Below are positions 493 to 34,449 of a stretch of DNA of 64,000 nt, one piece after another; the stretch's first letter is position 1; each line of letters opens with the position of its first letter. The stretch covers positions 496,001 to 560,000 of the forward strand of contig NC_013525.1 in assembly GCF_000025005.1 (NCBI RefSeq), written 5' to 3'. Under the pieces are notes generated by a model that was given only the letters and a program-made list of their open reading frames with translations, was not told the DNA's origin and made no database searches. The position numbers and the translations under genes are program-made. This stretch comes from Thermobaculum terrenum ATCC BAA-798 (GTDB taxonomy: Bacteria > Chloroflexota > Chloroflexia > Thermobaculales > Thermobaculaceae).

Positions 493-3400
493 TTACTTTA
501 TGTCGGCTAGAGAGGTGTATAGAAGCATATCGTGACTACTCTCAGCGAGCACCAGGTAATGCCATAGGCTTATTTCCTGACCCCCTGATAGTTTCAGCTT
601 ATGATCTGCTATTAGCCTCGATTCCTCATTGCCTCCTGAATATCCGGTTATTACGCCTTCATTTCCGGTTACTAACCCTAGCACTTTATCGTTGCTGTAC
701 TGTACTCCCATGGCCCTAGTGTCGTTCATGTCTGGCATGTCTTGTAGCCCAGGTATAATCACAGGGTCCTTATATAGTCTGAGAAGAGCAGGGAAATCCG
801 GTTCGATAGCAGGATTGACCTGTAAGGAGTAACTTATGTTCCTCTCTGGCCCCGTGTTCCTTAGTACTGTATTAACGATCAGTATATTACTATCGTGTGC
901 AGTCAAGTAGCTGACCTCGAATCTCAAACCTAGAAGGCTATCGTGTTCAACAGTAGTCGTAAGCCTTATCCCATGGAGTGGGATCTGGGAGTCCAGGTGA
1001 GTATGATATTCGTCTACTACGAACTTGAGTCCTGCTAGCCTTCCCAGTTGGCTAGGATGATAGCCTCCTTGTTCCCAGAGTACAGGGTAAATACCTCCGT
1101 ATACCGGATAGGACCATCTTCTTGGTTTGGGCTCTGGGAAGTTGTGATAAAGCCATTGCTTACCATCGGCTTCTAGACTATAGATAGTGCCAAGGACTCT
1201 GGGCCATACGGAAAATGTCATCCAGTCGTTATCTATAACCCAGACTTCTTCGCCCTTATCTATGGTTTGAGTGATTCTGACTTCGTCTGTATTGCCAAGT
1301 ACTATAGCGGGCGCTTTTACCTTGCCGGTGTATACAGGAGACTCTACAAGGGCTTCTATCTCCCCCACGCCCCTGGGCTTAGTAGATGTTACGGTTATAT
1401 CAGCTGATGCGGCTTTGATGCTGCTAACGCCTTGCAGGGTGTACTCAGCTGGCAGGGTTTCAAAGCCATCACTGCCCTTGAGGCTTATCTTCGCCTGTAC
1501 CTCACGTGGGTTGAACGACCTGAAGGTTAGCTTCGCTCTACCTTTCTGGTTGTAGACCCTTATAGGCTTGGGACTAATTCTTGGCCCTACGTAAGGCTCT
1601 TCGTCCGCGGACTCTACATTCTTGTTGTTGCGGTACAGCCACTCCCTCCTTACGTCTTGCCATCTACCAGTGCTGAGGATCAAATCTATCTCTCCTGTGC
1701 TCATGGCCTGTCCTGCCTCGAGCTGGTGTTCTGGCCACTTCAGGGAGAAGTCTGACCATTCCGGACATCTAGCCTCATAATTCTCATCCCATAGCAGACC
1801 AATAGTCCACTCGACAGTCTCTATGGCTGCCCACCTGCAGTCAGGATTCATCTGGTAATGCGGTTGCCATTCGGGTAGGTATACCTCTTTCAACCTTACA
1901 CTGCGAACTCCCTCAGTGGTCTCAAAGTAGAGGTGCCTAAGAGTATTACCTGGTTGTGGCGATATAGAGGTCGTTAGCCCGACGTCCTGGTTCTCATGCT
2001 TGTTTAAAACTCTATAGCTTATCTTGAGGTGTCCATCTGGACAGAACTTGTATAGTCTATCGATGGCTACCTTAGGCTTTGCTTTGAGTGATATAGGTGC
2101 TCTTACTATTAAGCTTCTGCCCTCAAAACATATATCTTTCTCAGAATCGTGCTCGATTGATGCTTCGGGCCAATATGGAGGTCCGGGGTTGACTGAGACG
2201 TCTATTACCTTGCCTTCTGTTCTCCTGTCGAAAACCGACAGCTCATATCCCTGTAGATTTAGAGATAGCTCAAGCCTGTCCGTATATATACGTAATGTGT
2301 TGTCCTTCTCTTGGTAGTAGATGTCACCAGGCGTCACAGCTACTAGCTCGAAGCTTTCTTCTCTGCGATCACCGTCTTCTGATTGATATCTTACGATCAA
2401 TTTGTACGAACCGTTGTGATTTGCTTGCAGATCAATTGGAATATGAGCCCATTCTCCAGCATCGAGTGCAATGGAGTCCGCTTGCAATCGGGCTTCCAAG
2501 CCTGCTGTGGTATTTATCGCGAGCTGTAAGTTTGCACGTTCGGAAGAGAGATTCCCTACAGAAAGCAGGGCTCTTTTAATCCTCTGTGGCTCCAGTAGCA
2601 CATTGTTCAAATGTATGTCGATCCTGGGCTTTACTTTGATATAACCTTCCAGCTCGACCTTATGCTCACCAATGGCTACTTCCAGCTTCAACGAGCTGTC
2701 CCCACGCTTGTCTTCAGATGTCTTTATGTCTATAGGGATGCTACTCCTTTCAGCAGGCGCAAGAACTAGCGGGTGGAGCCCCTGAGCTTCCACGCCACCC
2801 TTGCCGCTTGCTGCTAGAGCTATCCTTAGCGCCTCGTGTGCTCTATTCTCAACTACCAGCATAGCTTTCTGGCTCTCTCCGGCGGTCATAAGGGCTTTAG
2901 GAATTTCAAGGGATAGATAGATCCTCGGAGTATCTAAGGTAACCAGTTTGTTGGTCTTTTGATCAAATATGGCTGTCAGGTTTCCAATTGGAGATTCCCA
3001 GCGATAGGTATAGATAAGCGTGCCGTTGCTACGCCTTTCCTCGTCTACGCCCAGCTGGAGGTCCCTTTTCATATGGTCGTACCAGTCAATCTGGTCGAAG
3101 TACCACTTGGTCAGCGGATGCGATAGCAGCAGTGGGAGGAAGTTCCTTAGCTCTCCAAATCCTGATGGTTCTGGCCCCCAGAAGAAACCAGTCTTTTTGT
3201 ACAAGGGCACGGCGCGAGTATTGCCAGGCCATGTGTGTAAGGTTACAGTCTCATAGCCGAGCTCCACACAACGCTGGATGGCACGCTTAAGAAGTTCCCT
3301 GCCCACGCCCCTACCATGATAGGCGGGGTCACTGTTGAGAAGTCCTATGTACCCGGATTTTTCCTCCTGTGGTACTTCCAATAAGTTGATGAAACCTACT

Positions 3401-3588
3401 ACCTTGCCATCTGCCCATGCCAGATAGGTGCTGTTTATCCTCTCCTCCTGACTCATTCGCCTGAGCGCGTCTTCAGGAACGATTTGGCCAAAGAAGAAGC
3501 CCCCTGGCCATGCCGGATCAGAGGCTTTGAACAGCCTTGCTATCTCTGGAATATCGGACTCCCTGAATTCCCGTATCTCAAAATCCAT
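493..3588 (-). CDS. GNAT N-acetyltransferase fused to a large beta-sandwich region
   Basis: The protein has 1031 residues. Residues 1-150 form a GNAT acetyltransferase domain, with the acetyl-CoA loop visible in AYHGRGVGRELLKRA (Q/RxxGxG/A type) and a following YKKTGFF strand typical of the fold. The remaining 880 residues have no catalytic motif I recognise. They read as a chain of beta-sandwich modules; the part around 220-420 resembles NEW3/CARDB-type domains (alternating hydrophobic strands, PAERSSIPIDI). Later segments contain many aromatic residues and resemble carbohydrate-active-enzyme accessory regions. No signal peptide is seen, consistent with a cytoplasmic GNAT head. The ATG at 3588 is followed directly by the conserved GNAT first strand (FEIREFRESDIPEIARLF). 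The combination is unusual; an acyl transfer to a large bound substrate is only a guess. Confidence 0.8.
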   Translation of the reverse strand: MDFEIREFRESDIPEIARLFKASDPAWPGGFFFGQIVPEDALRRMSQEERINSTYLAWADGKVVGFINLLEVPQEEKSGYIGLLNSDPAYHGRGVGRELLKRAIQRCVELGYETVTLHTWPGNTRAVPLYKKTGFFWGPEPSGFGELRNFLPLLLSHPLTKWYFDQIDWYDHMKRDLQLGVDEERRSNGTLIYTYRWESPIGNLTAIFDQKTNKLVTLDTPRIYLSLEIPKALMTAGESQKAMLVVENRAHEALRIALAASGKGGVEAQGLHPLVLAPAERSSIPIDIKTSEDKRGDSSLKLEVAIGEHKVELEGYIKVKPRIDIHLNNVLLEPQRIKRALLSVGNLSSERANLQLAINTTAGLEARLQADSIALDAGEWAHIPIDLQANHNGSYKLIVRYQSEDGDRREESFELVAVTPGDIYYQEKDNTLRIYTDRLELSLNLQGYELSVFDRRTEGKVIDVSVNPGPPYWPEASIEHDSEKDICFEGRSLIVRAPISLKAKPKVAIDRLYKFCPDGHLKISYRVLNKHENQDVGLTTSISPQPGNTLRHLYFETTEGVRSVRLKEVYLPEWQPHYQMNPDCRWAAIETVEWTIGLLWDENYEARCPEWSDFSLKWPEHQLEAGQAMSTGEIDLILSTGRWQDVRREWLYRNNKNVESADEEPYVGPRISPKPIRVYNQKGRAKLTFRSFNPREVQAKISLKGSDGFETLPAEYTLQGVSSIKAASADITVTSTKPRGVGEIEALVESPVYTGKVKAPAIVLGNTDEVRITQTIDKGEEVWVIDNDWMTFSVWPRVLGTIYSLEADGKQWLYHNFPEPKPRRWSYPVYGGIYPVLWEQGGYHPSQLGRLAGLKFVVDEYHTHLDSQIPLHGIRLTTTVEHDSLLGLRFEVSYLTAHDSNILIVNTVLRNTGPERNISYSLQVNPAIEPDFPALLRLYKDPVIIPGLQDMPDMNDTRAMGVQYSNDKVLGLVTGNEGVITGYSGGNEESRLIADHKLKLSGGQEISLWHYLVLAESSHDMLLYTSLADIK

Positions 3589-3757: not shown

Positions 3758-4822
3758 ATGGATGATAGGGAAAGAATCAGGCTTACATCTCTAGCTTCAT
3801 GTGCTGGTTGAGCGGCTAAGTTAGGTCCTGGTGACCTGGCGCAGGTTCTGCAGCCATTTACCGGTCGCAATACTTCTAATCTGCTAGTGGGCCTGGACGT
3901 GGCAGATGATGCTGCTGTCTATCGGCTTGACGAGGGCCAGGCTCTAGTACAGACTGTTGACTTCTTTCCCCCAATAGTCGATGATCCCTATACGTTTGGT
4001 GCTATAGCTGCCGCCAACTCCCTCAGCGACATATATGCTATGGGCGGGACTCCTATTCTCGCTCTAAACATAGCTGGATGGCCAGGCAATCTGCCTCTTG
4101 ATATGCTAGCGCAGATATTTAGAGGTGGTATGGACAAGGTTGAAGAGGCAGGTGCAGTGATAGGTGGTGGGCATACAGTTATGGATCAGGAACCTAAGTA
4201 CGGCTTGTGTGTGACCGGTTTAATACATCCTGGGAAGATAACTACCAAAGGAGCTGTCAAACCGGGAGACTTGCTGGTACTTACTAAGCCTCTTGGCACA
4301 GGAGTGATAACTACAGCTCTGAAGAGTGGTAAGGTTAGGGACGTAGACATACAAGCTGCGGTGGATAGCATGCTGAGGCTAAATAAGGTGGCGTCTGAGC
4401 TAGCAGTTGAGCTAGGTATAAGAGCTATGACGGATATTACTGGCTATGGTTTGCTTGGTCATGCATTCGAGATGTCGGAAGCCAGTAACGTCTGTCTCAA
4501 TATAGAGCTATCTAAGCTTCCAGTCCTGCCAGGTGCGTTGGATTATATCAGGCAGGACATATATCCAGGGGGACTAAACCGCAACAGAAGCTACCTTACT
4601 GGCGAGCAAGATGGCAGGAAGAAAATAAGTTACGATAACAGCATTATTGTGGACGAGAACCTCGTCAAGCTTGCTATGGATCCCCAGACATCTGGGGGGT
4701 TGCTCATCGCTGTGCCCCAAGAGCAGGCAGATGAGTTTACTGCTCGGGCTGAGCAGAGAGGCCAGTCGATATGGATTATAGGTTTCGCCAGTGAGGGCTA
4801 TGGCGTACGTTTGCTCCCCTGA
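3758..4822 (+). CDS. selD: Selenophosphate synthetase containing selenocysteine (in-frame UGA at codon 18)
   Basis: SelD makes selenophosphate from selenide and ATP, the Se donor for selenocysteine and selenouridine. A conventional reading starts only at 3887 and lacks the catalytic N-terminus. Reading from ATG 3758 through the UGA at 3809-3811 gives MDDRERIRLTSLASCAG-U-AAKLGPGDL, which lines up with the E. coli SelD N-terminus (IRLTQYSHGAG-C17-GCK20): the UGA falls on the catalytic Cys17 position and Lys21 on the essential Lys20. Downstream motifs are intact: DDAAVY, MGGTPILALNIAGWP, VIGGGHTV, TKPLGTGV, DITGYGLLGHAFEM and MDPQTSGGLL. With Sec the protein has 354 residues, close to the usual 345-350. 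A bacterial SECIS-like hairpin follows the UGA. The 3' end overlaps the convergent SDR gene by 25 bases. Sec-containing SelD proteins are known in other bacteria; SelA, SelB and tRNA-Sec must be encoded elsewhere. Confidence 0.92.
3809..3839 (+). promoter_or_regulatory. UGA-Sec codon and bacterial SECIS hairpin
   Basis: The UGA is at 3809-3811. Eleven bases later AGGTC (3823-3827) pairs with GACCT (3833-3837) around the five-base loop CTGGT; two U-G wobbles (3821-3822 with 3838-3839) can extend the stem. Bacterial SECIS elements sit directly downstream of the UGA and present G/U bases in a small apical loop to SelB; spacing and loop here (GGU in the loop, 17-21 bases after UGA) fit the E. coli fdhF arrangement. 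The fold was done by eye. Confidence 0.8.
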
Positions 4823-26297: not shown

Positions 26298-27590
26298 CTA
26301 GCTTGCTCTGGCTAGTTGTAGTAACCTGCGCAGTACTTCCAAGTTTGACAGCAGTCCTATAGAAAGCAGTGTCTCTCTTGGCTTTCTTAGTATACTACCA
26401 ATTGCCAGTAAAGCTAAACGTACATCTCTTGTCATGCCTATAGATAACATGCTCGAGGGTATCTGTCCTAGTTCAGCCTCTATCCTTGCTCGGGAGTAAG
26501 GTACTAGCAGACTACCTGAAAGGGCTAGGGAGCCTGCTACGAGAGAGGATCTAGATTCAGAGCTTAGTGCCATGCCTGTAATTACTGCGGAGTCAGCCCA
26601 TCTGTCCAATACGGAATCAAATATAGCTCCTTGATTTGACTGCTGTAGCCTGACCCTTGCTATCTCCCCATCACAACCATCTATTATCGAGGACAGTTGT
26701 ACTAGTAGTCCTCCAGGGACATAAGCTCTTCTGGCGATAAGCAAGCTACCAGCTACAGCCAGCAGCAGGCTCATGATACTTATCTGGTTGGGCGTTGTAG
26801 GTGTGTTGGCCAGTAATCGGGTTATTCGCCTGCTTATGTGCCTATTAAAGTTTCTGGAGACAAAGCCATCCTTCCCCGAGGGTGCCCAGCTCATGATCAC
26901 ATCTATGGCTTTTGCCATATCTTCTGGAGTGTCGACGTCAATCCAGGGCAAACCCTGGAGGTCACAGGCAATTATCTGCCTGCCGGAAGCCAGCCACATA
27001 CGTTTGACCGTATTCCAGCTCAAGGCTTCATCCTGTGCTGGGACTAATTCCCTGAGCGAATCCCTGTGACACAGGAAAAGACCGGTGTCTATCGCATTGA
27101 ACTCAGGTATCTTTTTACCGATGTCCAGGATCTTGTCGCCTTCCAGTCGCACTTTGGTAGCCTCTTCGACATCTGCAAAACTTGGCTTCGTATCTACAGC
27201 GGCGACGAAATCACCCTCGCATTCCAGTAATGTCTTCACAGACTGGGGTGGATGTAGGTGGTCCACCATTGCCACTACGAATCGCTCGGGCATATGATCA
27301 AGCCCTGCCATCACGGATGTACCGTTACCCCTTTGGTAATCCGGATTTGTAACTATAACCACATCCAGCTTTCTGGAAGCGGCGAACTTTGAGACTTCAT
27401 CACCCCTATGGCCTACTACGACCACGATCTTTCCATCTACCCCTCCCAATCTCAGCGTGCGGATGGTTCTTTCAAGCAGGGTCAGACCTCCGATCTTTAC
27501 CAGGGGCTTAGGACTGCCGACGCACTGCAACCTCTCACCAAGCCCTGCAGCGGGAATAATCGCTCCAAGAGCATGCTTGCTCATACCCAC
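26298..27590 (-). CDS. Bifunctional inositol-1-phosphate cytidylyltransferase / di-myo-inositol-phosphate-phosphate synthase
   Basis: 430 residues with two fused enzymes. Residues 1-235 are a nucleotidyltransferase: IIPAAGLGERLQ, SPKPLVKIGGLTLLER, VVGHRGDEV, and metal/substrate segments MVDHLHPP and AIDTGLFL. Residues 245-430 are a CDP-alcohol phosphatidyltransferase with about five helices; its signature DGCDGEIARVRLQ...GAIFDSVLDRWAD fits DGxxARx8Gx3Dx3D. This order is that of IPCT/DIPPS enzymes of hyperthermophiles (Archaeoglobus, Aquifex, Thermotoga), which make CDP-inositol and join it to inositol-1-phosphate on the way to di-myo-inositol phosphate, a thermo- and osmoprotectant. The neighbouring glycerol genes would also fit production of glycero-phospho-inositol. 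A c-di-AMP riboswitch lies directly upstream. Confidence 0.9.
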   Translation of the reverse strand: MGMSKHALGAIIPAAGLGERLQCVGSPKPLVKIGGLTLLERTIRTLRLGGVDGKIVVVVGHRGDEVSKFAASRKLDVVIVTNPDYQRGNGTSVMAGLDHMPERFVVAMVDHLHPPQSVKTLLECEGDFVAAVDTKPSFADVEEATKVRLEGDKILDIGKKIPEFNAIDTGLFLCHRDSLRELVPAQDEALSWNTVKRMWLASGRQIIACDLQGLPWIDVDTPEDMAKAIDVIMSWAPSGKDGFVSRNFNRHISRRITRLLANTPTTPNQISIMSLLLAVAGSLLIARRAYVPGGLLVQLSSIIDGCDGEIARVRLQQSNQGAIFDSVLDRWADSAVITGMALSSESRSSLVAGSLALSGSLLVPYSRARIEAELGQIPSSMLSIGMTRDVRLALLAIGSILRKPRETLLSIGLLSNLEVLRRLLQLARAS

Positions 27591-27666: not shown

Positions 27667-27789
27667 GATTGCCTCCTTTCGTACGCCTACGGGGTTAGCT
27701 GACGGGTTAGGGTCGAAAGGCTACCCTGTCCAGACGGACTTCACCCCAATTACTTTTGGTTCCCCCGTTCCCTTCAAGGGATTCGGCCA
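27667..27789 (-). promoter_or_regulatory. c-di-AMP riboswitch (ydaO-yuaA type)
   Basis: The minus strand carries the consensus blocks of the ydaO class in order: GGCCGAATCCC, then GGGGGAACCAAAAG, TTGGGGTGAAGTCC, GGGTAGCC, and the highly conserved ACCCGTCAGCTAACCCCGTA followed by GGCG and the closing GGAGGC. These match the Thermoanaerobacter c-di-AMP aptamer (GCCGAAUCC, GGAGGAACC, UUUGGGGUUAAUC, ACCCGACAGCUAAC). A -10 box TATAAT (27791-27796) sits directly upstream, so the transcript begins at the aptamer. The class usually turns genes off when c-di-AMP is high, through a terminator like the one at 27621-27648. Controlled genes here: inositol-phosphate synthase, glpD, glpK and mgtC. Confidence 0.93.
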
Positions 27790-27850
27790 AATTATATATT
27801 TTGTTTCTAGAACTATAGCATACTAAGAAATTGAGAACTATGCCAAATGC

Positions 27851-27903: not shown

Positions 27904-29373
27904 CTACGCAGCGTAGTTCTTTTCCTGCCCTGAGTCCCTCTGGTTCTCCGTCAGGTAGAGGTCGACATACTTTGCTACGTCTCTACCCTCCTGCAGTGCC
28001 CATACGATGAGAGACTGTCCTATGCGGGCATCACCTGCAGCGAACACTCCAGGTATCTTAGTCATCTTCTGAGCGTCTGTAGCTATGTTACCCCTCTCTG
28101 TTAGCTCAAGTCCCAGTTGCGAGACGATGCCGTCAGTTTCCGGTCCTGCATACCCCATCGCTAGTAGGACCAGGTCAGCTGGCATCTCAAACTCGGATCC
28201 TGGTATCTCCTTTGCTCGACGTCTGCCATGCTCGTCGTATTCCACTTCTATGCGAGCAGCGCGTATGGCCCTTACGTGACCATTTTCATCACCTATAAAC
28301 TCCTTGGTGGATACACAGAACTCTCTGGTGCCACCTTCTTCATGTGCCGCCGAGATTGTGAAGACATACGGCAGCTCTGGCCAGGGGTTGTTAGGAGCTC
28401 TCTCTTTAGGTGGCGGAGCCCATAGCTGGAACTGTGTTACGGACTTGGCTCTCTGCCTGTGAGCGGTTCCTAGGCAGTCAGCTCCGGTATCTCCTCCTCC
28501 GATAATAATGACGTCCTTACCTTCCGCGCTGATGAACTCAGAATCGGGTATGTAGTCACCTTCGCACCTGCGATTTTGCATGGTGAGGTATTCCATCGCA
28601 AAGTGAATGCCTTTCAGATCCCTGCCGGGAACACGTATGTCCTTGGGCTTGGTTGCACCTATTGCAAGGATTACTGCATCGAATTCCCTTAGAAGCTCAT
28701 CAGCCGTGATGTCCACACCCACGTTGACGTTTGGCTTAAAGACTATCCCCTCCTGTTCAAGCAGGTTGAGCCTGCGGTTCAGGATAGAGGTGTCCATCTT
28801 GAACTCTGGAATACCGTATCTTATAAGTCCACCTATCCTGTCATCGCGTTCGAAGACTGTTACCCAATGCCCAGCCTGATTCAGCCTTTGGGCGGCCGCC
28901 AAACCTGCTGGGCCCGATCCTACGATCGCGACCTTCTTCCCTGTCCTAATGGCAGGTGGATTGGGTTTGATCCATCCCTCCCTCCAGGCGTGGTCTATGA
29001 TTTTCCATTCCACCTGCTTGATAGTTACGGGGTCTGAATTGATAGACAGCACACAGGAATCCTCACATGGGGCTGGGCACAGCTTGCCAGTGAACTCGGG
29101 GAAAGGATTGGTAGCATGCAGTCTCTCTATAGCTTCCTTCCAGTGATTCCTGTACACAAGGTCATTCCACTCAGGTATCAAGTTCCCGAGCGGGCAACCT
29201 CGATGACAGAACGGCACGCCGCAGTCCATGCAACGTGCAGCCTGTACTTGCACGACGTCCTCAGGGAGGTCGACATAAACCTCCTTCCAGTCCTTTACGC
29301 GCTCCTCGACAGGCCTACGAGGCGGAGCGTGCCTAGCTATCTCTATGAAAGCTGTAAGTTTGTTACGAACCAT
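27904..29373 (-). CDS. gltD: Glutamate synthase, small (beta) subunit
   Basis: 489 residues; GltD takes electrons from NADPH through FAD and 4Fe-4S clusters to the large subunit. N-terminal cysteines for the clusters are visible in [23 protein letters not shown] and [17 protein letters not shown] binding is [18 protein letters not shown] with [24 protein letters not shown] binding is [20 protein letters not shown]; the final FAD contact is [23 protein letters not shown]. It overlaps the end of gltB by 11 bases on the same strand, as in many gltBD operons. The pair converts glutamine plus 2-oxoglutarate to two glutamates. Confidence 0.96.
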
Positions 29374-32300
29374 GGCTTACCTCCACAACTTCCTGAGGTT
29401 GCTGCTTCTGCTCTTGTAGCACTCGCTTGTAGTCCTTGGGCATAACCTTCACAAACATGGGCAGGTAGTAGTCCCAGTTATCGAGGATTTTCGCTGCTAC
29501 CGAGCTGTTCGTGTACTCATAGTGCTTCTGTATCATCCTGTGAATGGTCTCGATATCATCCTCTTCCAGTCCTTCTAACTCGACCATCTCCAGGTTGCAT
29601 CTTCTTTCGAAGTTACCGTCTTCATTCAGGACGTATGCTATACCTCCGCTCATACCGGCTGCGAAGTTACGCCCTGTCTTTCCGAGTACTACTACCCTGC
29701 CACCGGTCATGTACTCACAGCCATGGTCACCAACTCCCTCAACTACCGCATGGGCGCCGCTGTTGCGGACTGCAAACCTCTCTCCAGCCTTCCCCCGGAA
29801 GTAGGCCTCGCCAGATGTAGCACCATACAGGGCCACGTTACCTATCAGGATATTCTCTTCAGGAACAAACCTGGACTCGCTTGGAGGATAAGCTATGATC
29901 TTGCCTCCGGACAGTCCCTTGCCAACGTGATCGTTAGCATCTCCTTCCAGCTCCAAAGTTATGCCCTTTGGCAGGAAGGCTCCAAAGCTTTGTCCGGCAG
30001 AGCCTCTGAACTTTATATGGATAGTATCGTCCGGGAGCCCTTTACCTCCGTGCCTGCGTGTGAGCTCGCTCCCTAGCATAGTGCCCACGGTCCTGTTGAC
30101 GTTTCTTATCGGCATCTCTATCCGGATAGGTGTGCCGTTCTCGAGAGAGTCCTTACACAGCTCTATAAGCTGATTATCAAGCGCTGTTTCCAGTCCGTGA
30201 TACTGTGACTCGGTACATCTTATCGCGTAGTACTTGTATTCTTCCGGCTGATGCAGGATCGATGATAGGTCGACTCCCTTAGCCTTCCAGTGATTGACGG
30301 CAGGACGTATGTCGAGCTTGTCTATTCTGCCTATCATCTCATCCATTGTTCGGAAGCCCAACTGAGCCATGAGCTCTCTGACTTCTTGGGCGATGAAGTA
30401 GAAGAAGTTCTGCACGTACTCGGGCTTACCGGCAAACCTCTTTCGTAGTACTGGATCTTGTGTGGCTATGCCTACAGGACATGTATTCAGGTGGCAGACT
30501 CTCATCATAATGCATCCGAGTACCACCAACGGAGCTGTTGCAAAACCGAACTCCTCGGCTCCCAACAGGGCTGCGATCACCACGTCCCTACCAGTCTTGA
30601 GGTGCCCATCGACCTGTACGACGATCCTGCTCCTGAGGTTGTTCTTGACCAGGACCTGCTGTGTTTCAGCGAGACCCAGTTCCCATGGGATACCTGCATG
30701 CTTGAGGCTGGATATGGGTGAGGCTCCTGTCCCTCCGTCATGGCCGCTGATGAGCACGACATCGGCATGAGCCTTTGCCACACCAGCTGCCACAGTCCCA
30801 ACCCCAACCTCCGCCACCAGCTTGACGCTTATTCTGGCCCTTGGATTAGAGTTCTTGAGGTCATATATAAGCTGTGCCAGGTCTTCGATGGAATATATGT
30901 CGTGGTGAGGCGGAGGAGATATCAGCCCCACGCCGGGAGTCGAGTGCCTGACCTTGGCTATCCAGGGATAGACCTTGTTCCCGGGAAGTTGTCCTCCTTC
31001 ACCAGGCTTTGCTCCCTGGGCCATCTTGATCTGTATCTCGTCAGCATTTACCAGGTATTCGCTTGTGACTCCGAACCTGCCTGACGCTACCTGCTTAATG
31101 GCGCTGCGGCGCGAATCGCCGTTAGGATCCGGGATATACCTGGCTGGGTCCTCGCCACCTTCGCCCGTATTGCTCTTACCCCCGATCCTGTTCATAGCTA
31201 TGGCTAGGGTTTCGTGAGCTTCCTGGCTGATCGATCCAAAGGACATGGCTCCGGTGGCGAATCTTTTGACTATGGACTCTACGGGCTCCACTTCATCTAG
31301 GGGCACAGGTTTGTCCGAGAACTTGAGCTCGAACAAGCCACGCAGAGTAGCTAGCTTCCTGCTCTGGTCGTCTATTAGGCGAGAGTATTCTTTGAATATG
31401 TTGTACTGGCCCGAGCGAGTAGCATATTGTAACTTGGCTATAGTCTCCGGATTGTACATGTGGTACTCGCCGTCTCGACGCCACTGGTACTCTCCACCCC
31501 ATTCCAGATCTGGCTGGCCTGGAATCGGTCTTTCTGGAAAAGCCCTTCTATGGCGCGCCAGGGCCTCTTCAGCTATGACATCGAGACCAACACCCCCTAT
31601 CCTGGAAGGGGTGCCAGTGAAATATTTCTGGACTACTTCCTGATTCAGTCCTATGGCCTCGAATATCTGGGCACCTCTGTAGCTCTGCAGGGTGGAGATA
31701 CCCATCTTGGACATAACTTTAAGCACGCCCTTGTTGACCGCTTTGATGTATTTCTTGACGGCCGTAGCGTGGTCTATGCCAGTAATGTGCCCATCTCTTA
31801 TCAGGTCATCTATGGTCTCAAATGCTAGGTATGGGTTGATACAGCCAGCTCCGTAGCCTATGAGCAGGCAGTAATGATGTACCTCCCTGGCCTCTCCGGT
31901 CTCTACTATCAGTCCCACCTTGGTACGCTTGCCGTTGCGTACCAAGTGATGGTGTAGTCCTGCCGTGGCCAGAAGGCTGGGGATCGGCGCTAGATCTTTA
32001 TTTACGCCCCTGTCGGAGAGCACCAGTATCGTGTAGCCTTCATCTATGGCCTTGTCAGCTTCTTCAAAGAGCTTATCGAGCGCTCTCTCCAGTCCCTTTA
32101 CTCCATCGCGAGCTGAGAAGAGCATTGGCAGGACCTTTGTCTTGAATCCGGGAGCTTCGAAGTTTATTATCGCTGCGAGCTGTTCATTGTCTATGATGGG
32201 TGAAGGTATCTCTATCTGTCGGCAGCTATCGGGCTCAGGCTTAAGCAGGTTCTTTTCAGGACCGAGCAGGGTGTCCACTGATGTTACCAGCTCTTCTCTT

Positions 32301-33940
32301 ATGGCGTCCAGAGGAGGATTGGTAACTTGAGCGAACAGCTGCTTGAAGTAGTTGAATAGCAGCTGTGGTCGTTCGGAGAGCACAGCTATAGGGGTATCTG
32401 TGCCCATAGAACCGATAGGCTCTTCACCGTTCTTTGCCATGGGGATGATTATGATCCTGTTCTCCTCATGCGTGTAGCCAAATATCTGCTGACGCTGGAG
32501 TACGGTATTGTGATCTGGCTCAGGCACGTGAGGAGGTGCGGGCAGATCATCTATCTTGACTCGGTTCTCCGATAGCCACCTGCCATAGGGCTTCTCACTA
32601 GCTATACGAGCCTTGAGTTCGGCATCATCGACTATGCGCCCCTCGACGGTATCTATTAGAAGCATCTTGCCCGGCTCAATCCTGCCCTTATAGACCACAT
32701 CTTCTGGCGCTACGTCCAGAACACCCACTTCCGAGGCCAGTATTACCTGATCATCCTTTGTAACGTAATATCTGGCCGGTCTCAGGCCGTTGCGGTCTAG
32801 GACGGCACCCACCAGGCGGCCATCTGTAAAGGCCACCGCGGCAGGTCCGTCCCAGGGCTCCATAAGGGAGGCGTGGTAGTCATAGAAATTCTTCTTGATC
32901 TCACTCATACCCTCGTGGCCTGACCATGCCTCGGGGATGAGCATCATCATAGCATGGGGTAGAGAGCGCCCAGCTCTTACCAGCAACTCAAGGACGTTGT
33001 CTAGGGTTGCTGAGTCGCTTCCTCCCTCCTGAATTACGGGCAGGATGTCCCTTAGATCATCGTCAAACAGCTCAGATTCCATCTGCCCTTCTCGGGCACG
33101 CATCCAGTTAATGTTGCCGCGGAGCGTGTTGATCTCACCATTGTGAGCTAGCATCCTGAATGGATGCGCCAGGGACCATGTGGGAAAGGTGTTGGTGCTG
33201 AATCGTTGGTGAACCAGAGCGATAGCGCTTTCCAGTAAGGGGCTTCTCAGATCGGCGAAGTAGGCTGGTAGCTGGTCCGCCGACAGCATGCCCTTATAAA
33301 CCAAAGTCCTACATGAGAGGCTTGGTACATAGAACATGTCTTTGGAGGGTATGTTCGAGTTGTCTACCGCCTTCTCCACTCGGCGGCGTATGAGGTAGAG
33401 CACGCGCTCAAAGTGCTCCTCGTCCTCTATGGCCTCCCCTTTACCTATGAACACCTGGCGCATCAGAGGCTCGCCGCTGCGGGCTATATCGCCTATCATG
33501 CTGTTATCCTGCGGGACGTCGCGCCACCCAAGCACCTTTTGCCCGGCGCGCATTATCTCCTGCTCAAACAATTCCTGGCAGGGCTTTGCTTGTTCCTCTA
33601 CCTTGGGCAGGAAAACCATGCCAACGGCGTATTCGCCGGGCTCAGGTAGCTCGAAGCCAAGCTTCAAGCACTCAGCCTTAAGGAAATTGTGAGGGATCTG
33701 GATCAGAATGCCTGAGCCATCTCCAGTATTCTTCTCGGCACCTACTGCTCCTCTATGCAAAAGATTCTGGAGTGCAAGTAGTGCTTTCTGGACGACATCG
33801 GAGGATTTCCTTCCTTTGATGTCAACTACAAACGCTACACCACAGGCATCTTTCTCAAAGGAAGGGTCATATAGTCCCTCAGCATCGGGCATTCCATATG
33901 GACGCTTACATGTAGCTTGCAACTCTTCTCTTTTCCCCAT
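29363..33940 (-). CDS. gltB: Glutamate synthase, large (alpha) subunit
   Basis: 1525 residues, the standard length. The mature enzyme begins at Cys33 in [14 protein letters not shown], the glutamine amidotransferase nucleophile, after a short propeptide. The glutaminase domain has [19 protein letters not shown] and [10 protein letters not shown]; the central and FMN domains include [23 protein letters not shown] split over the barrel and [12 protein letters not shown]; the 3Fe-4S cysteines are in [19 protein letters not shown]; the C-terminal beta-helix has GGKIIAYPP and [23 protein letters not shown] 33940 has GAGGG upstream. The mRNA begins with a T-box element, so transcription appears to depend on an uncharged tRNA. 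Confidence 0.97.
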
Positions 33941-34167: not shown

Positions 34168-34412
34168 TAAACCACAACAGCCCTCGATCCCAGCTCAAGG
34201 GACGAGGGCTGCCTCGCGGTACCACCCTTGTTGCCGCCACCTTCGGGTGACGACCACTCATGCGCGCTAACGGGCGTAACCCGTTCGACCCTACTAAGAT
34301 TTCAGGCCGACCGCTCCAGGGCCGCGTTCGGGATAAGAAGCGTCCGAGTCACACCAGCCCTCGGCTCTCTGAGCGTCTTCGTTACCCCTACTATTCCCTT
34401 TCACAGCGTTTC
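34168..34412 (-). promoter_or_regulatory. T-box riboswitch upstream of gltB, specifier reads CGC (Arg)
   Basis: On the minus strand the element shows the specifier-loop motif AATAGTA (5' side), a helix pairing GGGGTAACGAAG with CTTCTTATCCC, the AG bulge CAGAGAGCC, a distal hairpin CCGAG/CTCGG, and on the 3' side GAA-CGC-GG (GAA 34327-34329, CGC 34324-34326). In the Oceanobacillus glyQ T-box the specifier follows the same GAA, which makes CGC (arginine) the specifier here. The T-box sequence GGGTGGTACCGCG follows (about 34216-34227), with UGGU to pair a tRNA ending ACCA. The terminator is a long stem CAGCCCTCG/CGAGGGCTG (34178-34211) with TTGTGGTTT. An alternative AGGG/CCCT antiterminator is available. 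High confidence for T-box, moderate for specifier. Confidence 0.92.
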
Positions 34413-34449
34413 TATTTGTGATTTACTTTAACAAACTTCTCTCGGGATA

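Follow-up and report, generated by a model that had tools for sequence, protein, structure and literature searches.

A selenophosphate synthetase gene of Thermobaculum terrenum with a predicted selenocysteine codon and a putative tandem hairpin

Selenophosphate synthetase (SelD) carrying selenocysteine (Sec) ranks, according to PMC1794560 and PMC13188914, among the two bacterial selenoproteins with the widest distribution. A selD gene that appears to belong to this class lies near the start of a 64,000-nucleotide stretch of the genome of the thermophilic soil bacterium Thermobaculum terrenum ATCC BAA-798 (NC_013525.1, positions 496,001 to 560,000), which is referred to as the window and to which short coordinates refer. 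The published accounts of bacterial Sec-SelD and SPS2 (PMC1794560, PMC4561486, PMC13188914) describe the same combination as that predicted here, namely the same protein family, Sec at the catalytic site, a UGA codon followed by a downstream RNA structure, and the genes selA, selB and selC. On the basis of sequence comparison, the T. terrenum gene is read as encoding a selenophosphate synthetase with Sec specified by UGA 18, with a probability of roughly 0.97. The gene and its recoded codon are as follows.

3758..4822, plus strand: selD, selenide-water dikinase (selenophosphate synthetase), 354 residues with Sec18, recognized from the read-through translation, TIGR00476 and the PDB relatives 2yye and 3u0o
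3809..3811, plus strand: in-frame TGA, Sec codon 18 counted from the ATG at 3758, recognized from alignment with Cys17 of E. coli SelD and from the TGA in related loci

The initial annotation held that reading through this TGA restores the N-terminus of SelD up to an ATG, that the UGA coincides with the catalytic Cys17 of E. coli SelD with a lysine three residues on, and that a standard gene call would miss 43 codons and the active site. These claims are borne out. The frame is continuous from ATG 3758 to 4822 and, past TGA 3809-3811, stays open up to the terminal TGA stop at 4820-4822. The read-through protein matches the SelD equivalog model NCBIfam TIGR00476 over its full length with 372.1 bits (cut-off 125) and PRK00943 with 338 (cut-off 299). 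It is homologous over its whole length to E. coli SelD (PDB 3u0o), and in that alignment Sec18 and Lys21 fall on Cys17 and Lys20; the E. coli gene has a Cys codon in place of the UGA and is translated without recoding. In the absence of recoding, the earliest in-frame ATG, GTG or TTG past the TGA is GTG 3887, and the 43 codons lost would include the active site. The main relevance of the case is to annotation, where a standard gene call would make this omission.

A single TGA could arise by a one-base change, so that a sequencing error (the true codon being TGT or TGC) or a dead gene might be suspected; nothing else was found in favor of either. At the same codon, related SelD loci from independent assemblies harbor TGA in 105 of 110 cases, TGC in four and TGT in one, and the rest of the protein is intact and 47-61% identical. 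Since the TGA recurs at exactly this codon in 105 loci, its occurrence by chance is excluded, and the conserved TGA refutes error and pseudogene for selD, leaving them a negligible probability. The phylum was sampled with 251 genomes, of which 195 gave a strong match; among the 150 phylum matches listed, a hand count gives TGA in 136 and no TGA in 14, one of which is without its N-terminus. Sec-SelD is thus the usual form in the phylum, because TGA predominates both in the related loci and in the phylum matches listed.

Cys-form SelD domains also occur among the relatives. Two of these (G237:C14:165020-166024 and G209:C1:144598-145602; L157 and L160) lie in open frames of about 745 residues, which makes them probable fusions. 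Genome G237 has, in addition and separately, a TGA-containing SelD.

The T. terrenum genome consists of two chromosomes of 2,026,947 and 1,074,634 bases (total 3,101,581), and strain YNP1 is described as an obligate aerobe with two chromosomes (PMC3035366). Searches of the organism's own genome locate selA at C1:868172-869533 (505.6 bits), selB at about C1:1502234-1504081 (345.7 bits over the cut-off) and a tRNA-Sec with anticodon UCA at C1:1788871; these genes are distant from one another and from selD. The proposal that the organism makes selenocysteine, for which a search for selA, selB and selC had been recommended, thus agrees with the gene content, as all three are present and the TGA is shared by relatives from independent assemblies. 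The selenoproteome was sampled by family, with formate dehydrogenase (FDH) and AhpC/TSA as the families covered, and two further candidates were identified.

C1:916671: in-frame TGA of an FdnG/FdoG-type formate dehydrogenase, region C1:914001-920500 (L136), motif ENQARIUHSS
C1:670701: in-frame TGA of a second FdnG/FdoG-type formate dehydrogenase, region C1:665501-673500 (L137), motif ENQARIUHSS

Each FDH gene has one TGA in frame, followed 18 nt downstream by a hairpin with a GGUCU loop. Because both carry a Sec-type UGA in the standard motif, SelD is not the sole selenoprotein of the genome, and that candidate explanation was rejected. The AhpC/TSA genes of the genome show no internal stops, and no literature on selenoproteins of T. 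terrenum was found. The bacterium that carries this UGA-containing FDH pair is, by its published description, obligately aerobic.

A different decoding of UGA 18, by a Cys or Trp tRNA for example and without any Sec, has a precedent in that PMC4561486 proposes non-Sec read-through at the same codon of insect SPS1-UGA. It is very improbable here, as selA, selB and tRNA-Sec(UCA) are present and are needed by the two FDH genes with their classic Sec motifs, and as structured RNA follows the UGA codon in relatives.

A single SelD was found in the genome, in the UGA form; the other match has 28% identity and seems to be a remote relative within the superfamily. The dependence of SelD on itself is therefore real by gene content, which upholds the autocatalytic loop suggested earlier, in which the organism uses Sec to make its own selenium donor. 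Neither a selenouridine synthase nor yqeB was found in the genome as an indication of another role for SelD, and its retention for selenouridine or a selenium cofactor is unsupported. This agrees with PMC1794560 and PMC5322559, which report the selenouridine trait as absent from Chloroflexi. The full selenocysteine pathway is thus kept by an obligately aerobic thermophile whose only detected SelD depends on that same pathway.

In the proposed mechanism, the ribosome would read UGA 18 as Sec by means of tRNA-Sec(UCA) delivered by SelB, which would recognize an RNA structure directly downstream within the coding sequence, comprising a first hairpin (A), a second (B), or both. Sec18, at the site of the E. 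coli catalytic Cys17, would contribute to the synthesis of selenophosphate out of selenide and ATP. This selenophosphate would then serve SelA in producing Sec-tRNA, such that SelD would help to supply its own Sec as well as that of the two FDHs. The candidate structures for the selenocysteine insertion sequence (SECIS) are the following.

3820-3827/3833-3840, plus strand: stem of hairpin A, loop CUGGU at 3828-3832, 16 nt after the UGA; folds alone at -10.8 kcal/mol
3838..3855, plus strand: hairpin B, stem 3838-3844/3848-3855 with a bulged A at 3852; folding energy -9.9 kcal/mol when one flanking pair is included

Hairpin A is the structure named in the initial annotation, where a hairpin with a GGU-containing loop was placed 11 bases after the UGA, and it is found as AGGUC-CUGGU-GACCU. 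The loop of hairpin B is GUU at 3845-3847 (or GGUUC at 3844-3848), and this hairpin follows the UGA at a distance of about 33 nt. Bases 3838-3840 are common to the foot of hairpin A and to hairpin B when both stems are full, and a shortened hairpin A (5 bp) folds together with a full hairpin B at -14.3 kcal/mol.

The bacterial SECIS model in PMC13188914 comprises a loop of 3-9 nt, a stem of 4-16 bp, a spacing of 16-37 nt and an energy of -7.5 or lower, with the further rule of a G within the first two loop positions. Hairpin A agrees with the rules for loop (5 nt), stem (8 bp), spacing (16) and energy (-9.1 to -10.8 kcal/mol) but fails the G rule, since CUGGU has no G at positions one and two; the commonest hairpin A loops of the relatives, CGG.., conform to it. 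Hairpin B, given its one bulged base, agrees with all four rules (loop GUU, 4 + 4 bp, spacing 33, -9.1 to -9.9 kcal/mol) and conforms to the G rule as well, while its contiguous stem alone (4 bp, -2.2) misses the energy rule. Its apex, GCAGGUUCUGC, resembles the E. coli fdhF apex, GCAGGUCUGC. Hairpin A, put forward earlier as the SECIS, is conserved and covaries, but it is probably not the sole element, because the adjacent hairpin B fits the published rules better here.

Folding energies give a weak signal at this site. A scan with the published rules that allows only contiguous stems does not single out the T. terrenum gene (best -5.1), but it also gives only -2.0 for E. coli fdhF and lets through 57 of 1728 positions chosen at random in the window, so that it does not discriminate. 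When the region is recoded synonymously, 257 of 2000 versions fold at least as well as the native one (z -1.13), whose stability is thus only mildly raised. Over 100 Sec genes the mean z against synonymous recoding is -0.99, the minimum among 30 positions taken along the gene, and the Cys-form SelD genes, at -0.59 (n=13), are not clearly different, the contrast being modest. As the region as a whole, taken in this sequence alone, does not fold exceptionally well, the case for the RNA rests on covariation among relatives and not on energy.

The fair set for this comparison consists of 98 distinct, unselected Sec-SelD sequences; a 32-sequence alignment (A1) had been hand-picked for resemblance to hairpin B, and for this reason the 98-sequence count is preferred. 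Hairpin A can form in 90 of the 98, hairpin B in 53, both in 50 and A without B in 40. The covariation scores of A and B, computed without control for relatedness, are reached by none of 500 shuffles, and all slid versions score lower. The plainest individual indication comes from hairpin B, where the codons for Gln29 and Leu31 occur as CAG..CTG in 29 sequences, as CAA..TTG in 11 and mixed in five (Fisher p 2e-6, an optimistic value because relatedness among the sequences is uncontrolled), and 10 of the 32 hand-picked sequences are changed on both sides of this pair. These changes are silent in the protein and therefore point to RNA pairing.

That hairpin A alone is the SECIS and hairpin B incidental is possible, at less than even odds. 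Hairpin A is the nearest to the UGA, is the more widely formable, covaries and often occurs without B, and the two FDH hairpins of the genome likewise lie close to their UGA codons; the compensatory synonymous changes in hairpin B argue against this assignment. A comparable standing, again short of even, is given to hairpin B as the SelB-binding element of selD with hairpin A as an accessory or spacer. The loop and spacing of hairpin B, its fdhF-like apex and its strong covariation favor such a role, whereas its restriction to 53 of the 98 relatives and a spacing well beyond the 18 nt seen in the FDH elements of the same genome speak against it. A third and more tentative suggestion, which we consider unlikely, is that the recoding signal here and in many relatives consists of tandem hairpins sharing their feet, with SelB taking the second GU-containing loop at about 33 nt or the hairpins exchanging with one another.

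A Cys-form SelD with the codon TGC (L023 / L105) retains seven of the eight pairs of hairpin A. This remnant looks like a relic SECIS left after a Sec-to-Cys change.

Several other features were observed in the window. A c-di-AMP riboswitch (RF00379, 95.6 bits; 27668-27798, minus strand) lies upstream of an open reading frame (26298-27590, minus strand) with NTP-transferase and CDP-alcohol phosphatidyltransferase domains; its product is not evidently an ion transporter or a hydrolase of the cell wall. A T-box leader (RF00230, 141.5 bits; 34195-34413, minus strand) is found upstream of genes for a glutamate synthase large subunit (29363-33940, minus strand) and a small-subunit-like protein (27904-29373, minus strand); leaders of this kind are commonly located ahead of tRNA synthetase or amino-acid genes. 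A protein of 1031 residues (493-3588, minus strand) has an N-terminal GNAT acetyltransferase domain followed by about 900 residues without a Pfam match at 1e-8.

Compared with bacterial Sec-SelD and SPS2, the enzyme does not differ in any respect, and it is well supported that the Sec-SelD of T. terrenum represents a well-known arrangement common to most of its relatives. The accessible literature on these proteins yielded no description of two adjacent hairpins after a selD UGA. The FDH genes of the genome share with the E. coli fdhF SECIS a GGUCU loop at 18 nt, whereas hairpin B is placed some 33 nt downstream of its UGA and the loop of hairpin A (CUGGU) differs. If true, a tandem signal would contrast with the situation known from fdhF, where one hairpin stands close to the codon, and the paired hairpins would raise the small question of how SelB finds its site. 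The putative tandem hairpin is the only part that goes past textbook knowledge, and it would constitute a modest refinement of the known system.
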